Shown here in pieces: positions 1,074 to 5,258 of a stretch of 5,258 nucleotides of DNA. Position numbers and translations under genes: made by a program. A model generated the notes under the pieces. The model worked only from the letters and a program-made list of their open reading frames with translations. It had not been told where the DNA came from and ran no database searches. The stretch comes from Prevotella sp. (GTDB lineage Bacteria > Bacteroidota > Bacteroidia > Bacteroidales > Bacteroidaceae), in the NCBI GenBank assembly GCA_024681875.1, contig JAILAA010000118.1, forward strand, positions 1 through 5,258, in the 5' to 3' direction. Numbering within the stretch: position 1 is the stretch's first letter; the number at the start of each line of letters is the position of its first letter.

Positions 1074-4000
1074 ATGGACGGACAAGAGCTGATACAAAAC
1101 GAAAAGGCTGCACTCAGGCTGGAGTACATACCCGCTGTTAACTACGCTATGATGAACAACGGGGTGGAAACATGCTCGAAATGCGTGCTGGACAATGTGA
1201 GCCAGGACGACTGGCAAATGATTCGGATGACTGTGAGCGGAGAGCTCGTCAAAGAACAATGCCTGCATATTGACTGCCTGCGGGCCGGTCAGTCCGTACA
1301 GGTCAGCCGGCTGCCCATCATGCCCGACATCGGGCGGCTGAGCGAGTTGACAGAGGCCGCCAACACCACGTTTACCATTACTGTGGAAGAGCAGAACGGG
1401 CCTTTGCTGCACCAGGAGCTGCCCATCACCTTGCTGGCCTACGACGAATGGGCTGGCGTGAACGTGATGCCCGAGTATCTGGCCGCATTTGTCGTGCCCA
1501 ACAACCCGATGCTGTCGAAGGTGAAGGTGGCAGCGGCACAGCTGTTGGAAAAATGGACGGGCTCGGCACAGATAGACGAATATCAGACGCAAGACCGCAA
1601 CCGGGTAAGGGCGCAGGTGGCCGCCATCTACGAGGCACTGCGTGCCGAGGGCATTGTCTACTCGGCGCCACCTGCCAGTTTCGAGGACAGCGGCCAGCGC
1701 ATCCGGCTGGCCGACAGGGTGCTGACAGAGAAGCTGGGCACCTGCATCGACACCAGCCTGCTCATCGCGTCCTGTTTAGAGGCCTGCGGCATCTTCCCCG
1801 TAGTAGTGATGATGAGAGGTCACGCGATGGTGGGCGCATGGCTCACGCCTAAGGTGTGCCCGCAGATGGTGGGCGACGACGTGAGCCTGCTGCTCAAGGA
1901 AACGGCCGACGGCAATAATAACCTGGTGCTATTAGAGTCGACGGCCATCACGTCGTCGGAGAACGTGGCATTCGAGGATGCTGTCGGGATGGCGCTGGCC
2001 AAGCTGAAGGACGAGCGCCAGTTCAACTGCTTCGTCGACATCCACCGCTGCCGCTTAGGAAATATCCGCCCTATGCCCCAGCGCATCTTGAGGGACGGGG
2101 TGTGGACCTTCGACAACGAGGGCGTGGAACACCAGCAGGCCACCGACCACGTGAACGAGCTAAGCCATTACGACCTGCGGTTAGAAGAAACGGGTCAGCC
2201 CACCACGAAGCAGATGATATGGGAGCGCAAGCTGCTGGACTTCTCGCTGCGCAACAACCTGCTGAACACCCGGCTGGGCAGAAGGGTGGTGCCGTTCATC
2301 TCCTTCGGCATCGACCACTTAGAAGACCATCTGCAAAACAACGAGGACTATGCCATCTTACCGTCGCCGGGGAAGAAGATGGAGCCGAATGACGAGGGGA
2401 TGTACGACTCCCAGCGCCAGGCGGCCGCCTACCAGGACTTCGCCTCGGAGATGATGAGCGACCATAAGATTGTCTCTTACCTGACGGATGCAGAGCTGCA
2501 GAGCGCCCTCACCTACATCTATCGTACGGCACGCACGTCGTTGGAGGAGAACGGTGCCAACAGCCTCTTCCTGGCGCTGGGTATGCTGCGATGGTTTGAG
2601 ACGGCCAAGAGCGAACAGCCACGCTATGCGCCCATCCTGCTGCTGCCAGTGGACATGGTGCGCAGGAGCGGCAACAAATACGTTATCCGCAAGCGCGATG
2701 AGGACATCATCCTGAATATCACGCTGGTGGAGCTGCTGAAGCAGAACTTCAAGATCAACCTGGACGGGCTGCTCCCACCCCTCAGTCCTTCGGACAGCCC
2801 CCCTCGGGCAGGGGGGCAGCTCCCACCCCTCAGTCCTTCGGACAGCCCCCCTCGGGCAGGGGGGCAGCTCCCACCCCTCAGTCCTCCGGACAGCCCCCCT
2901 CGGGCAGGGGGGCAGCTCCCACCCCTCAGTCCTTCGGACAGCCCCCCTCGGGCAGGGGGGCACTATGGGTTGCCGAAGGATGAGAGCGGCGTCGACGTGA
3001 AGAAGATATTCACCTATTTCCGACGGGCCGTGATGGAGCAGAAGCGATGGAATGTGGTGGAGGAGTCGATGCTCGGACTGTTCTCGTTCAACAAGTTCGT
3101 GATGTGGAACGACATCCACTCGAATGCCGATAAACTGGCAGAGAACCTGGTAGTGGCGTCGCTAATTGAGAACAAGGACAAGCAGGAACAGACCGACGAC
3201 ATTGTGGACGCCCGGATAATAGACAAGCAGAACTCGCCCGCCGACTTCTCCATCCCGCTCGACGTGGATTCCTCGCAAATGGAAGCTATCGTAGAGTCAG
3301 GACGTGGCAGGACATTCATCCTGCACGGTCCCCCGGGCACGGGTAAGTCGCAAACCATCACCAACATGATTGCCAATGCCCTCTACCAGGGACGCAGGGT
3401 GCTTTTTGTTGCCGAGAAAATGGCAGCCTTGTCGGTGGTACAGTCGCGACTGGAGAAGATAGGGCTGGCACCATTCTGCCTGGAGTTGCATTCCAACAAG
3501 GCAACGAAAAAGCATTTCCTCGAGCAGATGGAGCAGGTGCTGAACGTCACAAAGATCAAGGAACCGGAAGAGTTTGCCATGGTGGCTGACGAACTGTTCC
3601 AGCAGCGAAAAAGCCTGATTAACTATATGGAGGCCCTGCACAAAAAGGGCTCCAACGGCCTGAGTCTCTATGAGTGCATCTCGGAGTTTCTGACCATCGA
3701 CAACACTAAGAAGCAGGGGCGCTGGAGCGAGGAGACGCCTGAGTGCGATGACCTGCCAGCCGATGAACTACTCACGGCTCAATATATCACGAAGTGCCGA
3801 GGCGAGGTAGAGCCCGTTGCCGCTGTGCTGAGCATTGTAGGCACGCCCGAGAAGAGCCCGCTGATCGGCCTGGAGCCCGTCGACAACCAACTGGAGACTA
3901 CTGGCGGCATCAAGAGCATGCTCGTAGAATTCAGAGAGGTGTTGGCTGGCTACTATCAAGGGCTGAACCGCCTGGACACAGAAGCCTCGCTGCGATTGGA

Positions 4001-5258
4001 GTCTGACGAAGACCTCAAGTGGCTCGAGATGTTCAACAGTCATCTGGCTGCGCAAAAGCAGCATGAGGACTTGTATGGACAGCTGACGCGCTCGTACAGC
4101 GAGGACATTGTGCGCATGAATGTCGATGCCAGCAGGCGCGAATGGGAGGACATCAAGGCCAAATGGTTCCTGCCCCGCTACTTTGCAAAGAAGAAGTTCA
4201 TTAAGTCGCTACAACGCTACGGACAGATATTCGAATCAGGGGTTGACGAGACACTGGCTCTCGTCGCCGACTACCAGCAACAAGACAGAGACATCAAACA
4301 ACAGGAAGAGGAACTGGTGGCATACGCACGCAAAAACGGCTTCAGCCATCTGAAACGGAAGAGCGCCTACGAGACTCACTTTGGCAACGCCGGAACCAGC
4401 GGCCGTCAGGAATTCATGCAAGACGCAGATGCTGTGCTAACCAGCCGCCGACAGTTGCTAAAACTCACCGAGCAGCTGGGTGCCGTAACCGTCAAGAAGA
4501 ATTCCTTTGCGGATATCCGCGACTCGGTTGACAGATGGCTCGAAGGCTACGCGGACATCAAGGACTGGTATTTGTGGACGGACAAGAAACGCGAGCTAAG
4601 TGAAATGCAGCTCCGGCCTGTGGTGCGTAAGATAGAGGAAGGCGCAAACCCGCAAGACGCCATGCTGTGGTTCCTCAAGGGAGTATACCACCAGCTGATA
4701 GCCTTGGCCATCGACTCCAACGCACAACTGAGGACGTTCAACGGTACGATCTTCCGCCAGAAGATTGAGCAGTACAAGCGCGACACGCTGAGATTCCAGG
4801 AACTGAGCAAGAAGGAGCTTTACAGCAAGCTGGCATCGCGGGTTCCGTCCTCGTCGGCCGCCATTGCCGAAGGCTCGGAAATCAGCATCCTAAAGCGTAA
4901 CATTGCCAACGGAGGACGTGGAAACTCCATCCGTACCATCATCGACAACATCCCTACCCTGCTGCCCAGGCTCTGTCCCTGCATGCTCATGAGCCCCATC
5001 AGCGTGGCACAGTACATCGACTTGAACAGCGACAAGTTCGATCTGGTGATTTTCGACGAAGCCTCACAGATGCCTACCAGCGAGGCTGTTGGCGCCATTG
5101 CCAGGGGAAAGGCACTCATTGTCGTGGGCGACAGCAAGCAGATGCCACCGACGAGCTTCTTCACTTCCACACAGGTTGACGAGGAAGAAGCCGACATCGA
5201 CGACATGGAGAGCATCCTCGACGACTGCAAGACGCTCTCGCTACGCGAGTACTACCTC
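1074..5258 (+). CDS. DUF4011-type SF1 helicase with transglutaminase-like N-terminal region (3'-truncated by window)
   Basis: A single frame stays open for 1395 codons to the window edge. An in-frame TAA at 1044-1046 precedes it, and 1074 is the first ATG after that stop. Residues about 12-150 look like a beta-sandwich, with DEWAG at 124-128 and FVVPNNP at 139-145. A Cys-His transglutaminase-like region follows (about 200-310), then the DUF4011 region from W383. A 64-residue repeat insertion spans 567-630. The SF1 helicase core has GPPGTGKS at 752-759, DEASQ at 1328-1332 and GDSKQMPP at 1352-1359. About 570 residues, partly helical and charged, separate Walker A from Walker B. The predicted activity is ATP-dependent nucleic-acid unwinding or translocation in the cytoplasm. 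Relatives usually end in a second RecA domain plus DUF3320 and/or a Vsr-like nuclease, which cannot be seen here. Some are reported anti-phage proteins (Hhe type), so defence is a reasonable inference. The gene has its own promoter and no visible operon partner. Confidence 0.9.
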   Translation, partial: MDGQELIQNEKAALRLEYIPAVNYAMMNNGVETCSKCVLDNVSQDDWQMIRMTVSGELVKEQCLHIDCLRAGQSVQVSRLPIMPDIGRLSELTEAANTTFTITVEEQNGPLLHQELPITLLAYDEWAGVNVMPEYLAAFVVPNNPMLSKVKVAAAQLLEKWTGSAQIDEYQTQDRNRVRAQVAAIYEALRAEGIVYSAPPASFEDSGQRIRLADRVLTEKLGTCIDTSLLIASCLEACGIFPVVVMMRGHAMVGAWLTPKVCPQMVGDDVSLLLKETADGNNNLVLLESTAITSSENVAFEDAVGMALAKLKDERQFNCFVDIHRCRLGNIRPMPQRILRDGVWTFDNEGVEHQQATDHVNELSHYDLRLEETGQPTTKQMIWERKLLDFSLRNNLLNTRLGRRVVPFISFGIDHLEDHLQNNEDYAILPSPGKKMEPNDEGMYDSQRQAAAYQDFASEMMSDHKIVSYLTDAELQSALTYIYRTARTSLEENGANSLFLALGMLRWFETAKSEQPRYAPILLLPVDMVRRSGNKYVIRKRDEDIILNITLVELLKQNFKINLDGLLPPLSPSDSPPRAGGQLPPLSPSDSPPRAGGQLPPLSPPDSPPRAGGQLPPLSPSDSPPRAGGHYGLPKDESGVDVKKIFTYFRRAVMEQKRWNVVEESMLGLFSFNKFVMWNDIHSNADKLAENLVVASLIENKDKQEQTDDIVDARIIDKQNSPADFSIPLDVDSSQMEAIVESGRGRTFILHGPPGTGKSQTITNMIANALYQGRRVLFVAEKMAALSVVQSRLEKIGLAPFCLELHSNKATKKHFLEQMEQVLNVTKIKEPEEFAMVADELFQQRKSLINYMEALHKKGSNGLSLYECISEFLTIDNTKKQGRWSEETPECDDLPADELLTAQYITKCRGEVEPVAAVLSIVGTPEKSPLIGLEPVDNQLETTGGIKSMLVEFREVLAGYYQGLNRLDTEASLRLESDEDLKWLEMFNSHLAAQKQHEDLYGQLTRSYSEDIVRMNVDASRREWEDIKAKWFLPRYFAKKKFIKSLQRYGQIFESGVDETLALVADYQQQDRDIKQQEEELVAYARKNGFSHLKRKSAYETHFGNAGTSGRQEFMQDADAVLTSRRQLLKLTEQLGAVTVKKNSFADIRDSVDRWLEGYADIKDWYLWTDKKRELSEMQLRPVVRKIEEGANPQDAMLWFLKGVYHQLIALAIDSNAQLRTFNGTIFRQKIEQYKRDTLRFQELSKKELYSKLASRVPSSSAAIAEGSEISILKRNIANGGRGNSIRTIIDNIPTLLPRLCPCMLMSPISVAQYIDLNSDKFDLVIFDEASQMPTSEAVGAIARGKALIVVGDSKQMPPTSFFTSTQVDEEEADIDDMESILDDCKTLSLREYYL
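1674..2003 (+). other. Transglutaminase-like (papain-fold) region within the helicase protein
   Basis: Residues about 200-310. The segment LGTCIDTSLLIASCLEACG places C224 at the start of a hydrophobic helix, as in transglutaminase/papain-like folds. H250 follows in RGHAMVGAW, and E288 lies in LLESTA. C224, H250 and E288 are spaced as a plausible Cys-His-acid triad. The family might act as a protease, transglutaminase or amidase, or be a catalytically dead binding domain. Presence of the Cys and His is seen directly; activity is inference. Confidence 0.6.
2220..2771 (+). other. DUF4011 region of the helicase protein
   Basis: Residues 383-566. It opens with WERKLLDFSLRNNLLN (383-398), the signature-like start of DUF4011, and continues through a segment ending in VELLKQNFKINLDGL just before the tandem repeat. 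After the repeat the family-like sequence resumes with LPKDESGVDVKKIF, which I read as the continuation of the same domain or the linker to the helicase. The molecular role of DUF4011 is not established as far as I know; it is usually found fused N-terminal to SF1 helicases. Confidence 0.65.
2772..2963 (+). repeat. Four tandem 48-bp repeats in frame within the helicase gene
   Basis: Units lie at 2772-2819, 2820-2867, 2868-2915 and 2916-2963 with no spacers. Each encodes the 16 residues LPPLSPSDSPPRAGGQ, except that the last ends in H. The units differ only at 2886 (C instead of T in unit 3) and 2963 (C instead of G, at the exit junction). Each unit holds two perfect hairpins: GTCC-TTC-GGAC, and CCCCCCT-CGGGC-AGGGGGG. 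At 48 bases per unit, gain or loss of units keeps the frame. The encoded 64 residues (567-630) are Pro, Ser and Gly rich, so probably disordered. They fall between NLDGL and the conserved-looking GLPKDESGVDV. The near identity of units suggests recent amplification of an inserted intergenic-type palindromic element. Confidence 0.95.
3270..5258 (+). other. SF1 helicase core, N-terminal RecA domain (partial)
   Basis: A Q-motif-like SSQMEAI starts at residue 733 with Q735. Walker A GPPGTGKS follows at 752-759 (K758 binds phosphate). Motif Ia FVAEKMAAL is at 778-786 and LELHSNK at 803-809. MSPISVAQYI at 1306-1315 leads into Walker B DEASQ (D1328, E1329) and motif III GDSKQMPP (1352-1359). The DEAS form of Walker B and GD.KQ.PP are typical of the Upf1/AAA_11 branch of SF1 helicases. 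The catalytic residues seen are intact. The window ends at residue 1395, before motifs IV-VI. Confidence 0.9.

Follow-up and report, generated by a model that had tools for sequence, protein, structure and literature searches.

Tandem in-frame copies of a short palindromic element in a DUF4011 helicase gene of Prevotella, and related elements in other protein genes of Bacteroidales

The stretch of DNA analysed here (hereafter the window; 5,258 nucleotides from a Prevotella sp. assembly) carries on its forward strand an open reading frame that begins at position 1074 and is still open at the 3′ end of the window (1074–5258, 1395 aa), the C-terminal part of the product lying beyond it. Pfam placed a DUF4011 domain (PF13195, E 1.4e-43) at residues 386–555 (2229–2738, forward strand) and the start of a helicase core (AAA_11, GPPGTGKS) at residues 731–796 (3264–3461, forward strand), and with both PF13195 and the helicase core present the ORF was assigned to the DUF4011/SF1 helicases. 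Between the two domains and on the same strand lie four nearly identical units of 48 bp. Unit 1 (2772–2819) and unit 2 (2820–2867) are both LPPLSPSDSPPRAGGQ. Unit 3 (2868–2915, LPPLSPPDSPPRAGGQ) and unit 4 (2916–2963, LPPLSPSDSPPRAGGH) differ from them just by a T>C exchange at 2886, located in a hairpin loop, and by the last base (CAC vs CAG), respectively. Tandem Repeats Finder reported the array as 2766–2962 with a period of 48, 4.1 copies, 97% matches and a score of 380. Two hairpins, GTCC-TTC-GGAC and CCCCCC-TCGGGCA-GGGGGG, are found in each unit and occupy, in unit 1, positions 2785–2795 and 2798–2816. Folded as single-stranded DNA, the array surpassed 200 of 200 dinucleotide shuffles (z = –3.49), and no part of the window scored above the gathering cut-off of any Rfam family. 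All but one of the unit's six reading frames are open; the frame in use is that of the ORF starting at 1074, in which each unit is translated into the 16 residues LPPLSP(S/P)DSPPRAGG(Q/H). The initial annotation, which had described four palindromic 48-bp units in frame within a helicase gene, adding 64 Pro/Ser/Gly-rich residues between the DUF4011 region and the helicase core, was confirmed. The peptide encoded by the array is probably disordered.

A search for helicase homologues returned 7905 sequences at E ≤ 1e-3, the best 120 of which, the window itself being one of them, were compared. The spacing between LVELLKQ and SGVDV amounted to 80 residues in the window, whereas it was 16 residues in all of the 119 others. 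The alignment with related DUF4011 helicases that the initial annotation had called for hence placed the 64-residue block in the window only, and neither a second array-bearing sequence nor a homologue from another genus with the same Pro-rich segment occurred among the best 120 of the 7905. The DUF4011 SF1 helicases of Bacteroidales otherwise resemble the window protein closely, with the same domains and 78–98% identity (best local alignment, 48% of the searched region). Judging by record titles, many of the named helicase relatives come from ruminants. One apparent further case of a lengthened homologue, P0075, was rejected as a mis-hit of the regular expression, its actual spacing being 16 residues. 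At the level of genomes, no lengthened site was present in the 52 of 80 helicase loci that were readable automatically, and a search of all 80 loci for the 18-base core with up to three mismatches gave just two three-mismatch matches (L023 and L034), both off site. The relatives share the sequence NLDxLKELPKDESGVDV at this position, whereas the window reads NLDGL-[64 aa]-YG-LPKDE, with TAT GGG (2964–2969, forward strand) encoding Tyr-Gly at the 3′ junction. This comparison indicates that the old Lys-Glu pair was lost and that the 64 residues encoded by the array, together with Tyr-Gly, now stand in its place. Read from the sequence, the array is an insertion into the linker that separates DUF4011 from the helicase core, as initially proposed; the perfect continuity of the flanks that had been claimed along with it did not hold, the Lys-Glu pair being gone. 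An AlphaFold model of window residues 380–900 based on 21 sequences was too poor for use (mean pLDDT 39, pTM 0.22).

The initial annotation had also called for a search for the unit elsewhere in the host genome. Relatives of the unit were found in other genes of related genomes, where the copies are in frame. The genome of L001, the closest relative by helicase gene (a Prevotella metagenome-assembled genome), yielded no element copy and a single 14-base chance match. Across 398 genomes of L001's genus, the exact 18-base core was found at three places (control 0), and the pattern CCTCAGTCCNNNGGACAGC, in which the loop was left free, at seven places in six of 398 genomes (reversed control 2), the draws of genus genomes for the two patterns being nearly the same. 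A still looser genus pattern gave 12 places, namely the seven known ones and five more, against 7 for its control. With this ratio, and with one or two copies in each carrier, the window-type element is not a high-copy repeat in the genus. Some copies lie near contig ends (e.g., L085, L098), and draft assemblies may conceal others. The constancy of the stems among window-type copies provides no evidence because the stems were fixed by the genus search pattern.

All seven window-type places of the genus set lie inside ORFs of 208–720 codons, in the strand and frame of the window, and encode PLSP(S/T/A)DS or TLSPSDS. The host genes code for a biotin ligase (BirA, L082), a PAD_porph/agmatine deiminase (AguA, L157), a metallo-beta-lactamase-fold (MBL) hydrolase with rubredoxin (L158), a VapE-like protein (L159), a DUF6621 protein (L166, by Pfam) and a BT_3657-like/BT_1020-like glycosidase, here termed GH43 (L160, by Pfam, and its orthologue L170). 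Since L160 and L170 have one insertion in common, the places correspond to six events, or seven with the window. The element of L160 differs from unit 1 at just 2 of 47 bases, which pair with each other in hairpin 2 (C-G in the window, T-A in L160). Solved homologues of the agmatine deiminase and the biotin ligase show gaps at the inserted stretch, and the copies appear to be located in turns or linkers.

For two of these genes, filled and empty sites could be compared. At the GH43 site LVK-RGKD-YVMVV, L160 and L170 carry the insert and the five relatives read do not, the net gain being 39 nt; the MBL hydrolase site VVE-MDG-LFYM is empty in the six relatives read and filled in L158, with a net gain of 42 nt; two of nine sequences in each alignment were unalignable and left out. 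In both comparisons a few codons were replaced and no target-site duplication was evident. From their sequence, the replaced codons look like a short turn. The GH43 insertion was seen in G371 and G230 only, and its motif was found in none of 54 database homologues (site read in 24, with one mis-hit). The MBL insert, by comparison, is present in the representatives of 4 of 120 listed clusters, one of which comprises 159 sequences, the insert having been read in the representative only. The segment measures 23 or 24 residues in these four representatives vs 9 or 10 in the 116 others listed. EPLSPSDSSP is identical in all four and the residues after it diverge, so that the MBL insertion appears to be old and inherited.

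Beyond the genus, the element can be described as a sequence of about 47 bp with the architecture CTCCCACCCCTCAGTC-loop-GACAGCTCCCCT-loop-AGGGGAGCA, its first six bases being variable. The looser pattern CCTCAGTC-N3..15-GACAGCTCCC was present in 13 of 201 family genomes and the reversed-pattern control in none. Among 73 distinct element copies, 64 of them from family-genome loci found with the inner stem left free by the pattern, the stem extended past the fixed GTC/GAC in 71. The inner stems were of the types GTCC/GGAC, GTCAC/GTGAC, GTCGC/GCGAC, GTCAT/ATGAC and GTCGG/CCGAC; the inner stem pairs of the element family thus covary. The outer stem pairs were fixed by the search pattern and have no evidence value. 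The restriction to one strand and frame is confined to the genus sample and does not extend across the family: window-type stems lie outside long ORFs in G585, at least two of six window-type copies in G500 and G582 (L106, L119) lie in long ORFs on the opposite strand, and many element copies in G445, G496 and G566 lie outside long ORFs. Clusters of elements outside long ORFs were observed at L142, L147 and L153 in G496 and G566, spaced mostly by 150–550 bp, with one gap of 1.9 kb.

A sister variant, CTCTGTCC-NNN-GGACRTC, was found at 17 places in G593–G595, the genomes of L002–L004 (control 0). Thirteen of these places are in frame in proteins, in several frames, and the remaining four are not, as judged from the ORFs. 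The in-frame hosts comprise Mfd (in G594 and G595), the linker of a MurF-alanine racemase (Alr) protein, shikimate dehydrogenase (AroE), a PrmC-type methyltransferase, a PatB-like C-S lyase, a GAF methionine sulfoxide reductase (fRMsr), a LeuD-DUF4234 fusion, an APH-RapZ_C protein, an HHH_3 protein, two proteins of the DUF3987 kind and the N-terminus of an aconitase-family (LeuC-like) enzyme. Most of these gene names are backed by Pfam; the full names Mfd, LeuC, LeuD and MurF are our reading, as is the placement of L186, for which Pfam gave no match. Solved homologues of PatB and of the GAF reductase are clearly devoid of the inserted stretch, that of PrmC shows a gap at this position, and that of AroE aligns partly through the insert. 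At one Mfd site, the sister element is read in different frames in L184 (G594) and L177 (G595), giving GEMSEGQRGSSLHFN and GGDAPRAEGVCHFN, respectively.

Short palindromic repeats that are read as protein, and lengthen it, have been reported from other bacteria, most familiarly Rickettsia. The palindromic elements of Rickettsia and Wolbachia (RPE/WPE) are described in PMC3767692 and PMC10969869 as in-frame repeats in unrelated protein genes, with insertions common to several species, and the former source gives a length of 100–150 bp for RPEs and names Rickettsia and Wolbachia as hosts. The elements described here are likewise short palindromic repeats lying in frame in unrelated genes and absent from relatives. 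They differ in their size of about 47 bp, their Bacteroidales hosts and, in the window, the fourfold tandem arrangement. In both Rickettsia and Wolbachia, biotin ligase is among the genes reported to carry palindromic elements (PMC3767692), and L082 carries a window-type element in a biotin ligase gene. Intragenic GTAG/CGTC REPs, according to PMC3733652, are small hairpin repeats, some of which lie within ORFs in several bacteria, many of them in replication and repair genes, with repeat clusters encoding 43–82 aa; tandem in-frame REP arrays are therefore, on this account, not new as such. The window unit differs from these REPs in that it lacks GTAG and CGTC on either strand. No association with Y1 transposases, considered as candidate mobilising enzymes, was evident in a small sample of 20 genomes: Y1_Tnp (PF01797) was present in 6 of the 12 motif-bearing genomes and in 5 of the 8 that lacked the motifs. 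Enterobacterial RU-type MITEs resemble the element in being intragenic repeat DNA that is read as protein in some genes, and differ in being another element of another phylum with a length of 103–168 bp (PMC2759123). For Bacteroidetes, palindromic structured-RNA candidates are catalogued in PMC8040213. A topic-based literature search on palindromic, in-frame or intragenic repeats listed no description of the Bacteroidales element. The points of difference are the element itself (with neither tag, about 47 bp), its Bacteroidales hosts and the use of a single frame across the genus sample. In Bacteroidales, the element works like the Rickettsia palindromic elements and intragenic REPs. As to an origin from plasmids, phages or viruses, the 47-nt element had no match in plasmids, the array none in phages (low-complexity filter on) and the window-type pattern none in IMG/VR, and this origin was rejected.

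We consider it likely that the array arose by tandem amplification of a short REP-like element of Bacteroidales with two hairpins, which is able to enter protein genes and is retained where it is in frame and in a permissive place. One element of about 47 bp would have entered the helicase gene at the linker joining DUF4011 to the helicase core, displacing two codons, and the single insertion would then have been amplified to four 48-bp units of 16 residues each. In general terms, the element would insert or be copied, and in-frame events at permissive places would survive, the element behaving as a near-neutral passenger.

The initial annotation had proposed that unit number may vary without loss of the protein and could tune a linker between domains. 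A selected linker of this kind would have its unit number determine how far apart, or how flexibly joined, DUF4011 and the helicase core are. The position between two domains, the preserved frame and the retention of EPLSPSDSSP across four MBL clusters in an otherwise diverging insert would agree with a selected function. We nonetheless regard this as unlikely: no listed homologue among the best 120 of 7905 is lengthened at the site, and the copies in unrelated enzymes fit tolerance better than a helicase-specific role. Nothing measured points to linker tuning, and a tolerated passenger fits the data equally well.

An assembly artefact, either a repeat expansion made by the assembler or a chimeric join, was weighed because of the course of DNA identity between the window and L001. 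In blocks of 150 bases, identity was 0.73–0.83 over 1501–3000, 0.93 over 3001–3150 and 0.96–1.00 beyond. This switch just 3′ of the array indicates either a mosaic gene formed by recombination or a chimeric contig, and the latter is possible given the jump within 3001–3150. The unit is moreover self-complementary and tandem, and the array stands alone among the best 120 of 7905 homologues. However, the reading frame is intact throughout, the sequence on either side matches the helicase family, and the element is present as single in-frame copies in several other genomes and in four MBL protein clusters, which makes an artefact improbable as the source of the array. Similarly improbable is a minisatellite private to this gene, i.e., a low-complexity Pro-rich linker grown by slippage in the window helicase alone and unrelated to any repeat family: the four near-identical tandem units, a unit length that is a multiple of three and the absence of the array from all other listed homologues (best 120 of 7905) would suit it, but single two-hairpin units stand in the same frame in unrelated genes of other genomes, and that of L160 departs from unit 1 at only the two bases noted above.

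Taking the amplified Bacteroidales element as the preferred explanation, we lean towards the broader view that gut-type Bacteroidales possess palindromic protein-coding elements of a class distinct from that of Rickettsiales, which have repeatedly entered enzymes of housekeeping and repair (Mfd, MurF-Alr, AroE, PrmC, BirA, LeuC/LeuD-like proteins and the DUF4011 helicase) at turns and linkers, in the genus sample in genes only and in one frame. The hairpin repeat would then be a recurrent source of disordered peptide, with local amplification as in the window. A 2024 review considers in-frame palindromic insertion in Rickettsia unusually frequent and the same elsewhere conceivable (PMC10969869). 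An additional phylum with many genomes would make the movement of such elements, the tolerance or use of their peptides and the recurrence of particular genes (biotin ligase, repair helicases) testable, and annotators should take care not to mistake element-derived peptides for conserved protein motifs. Further palindromes lie upstream in the window, at 22–110, namely GCCCTTTCAGGGC, CCCAGGGC-GAT-GCCCTGGG and GGCCTTTCAGGCC. The last of these motifs also forms hairpin 1 in some element copies of G445 (L120, L125, L129).
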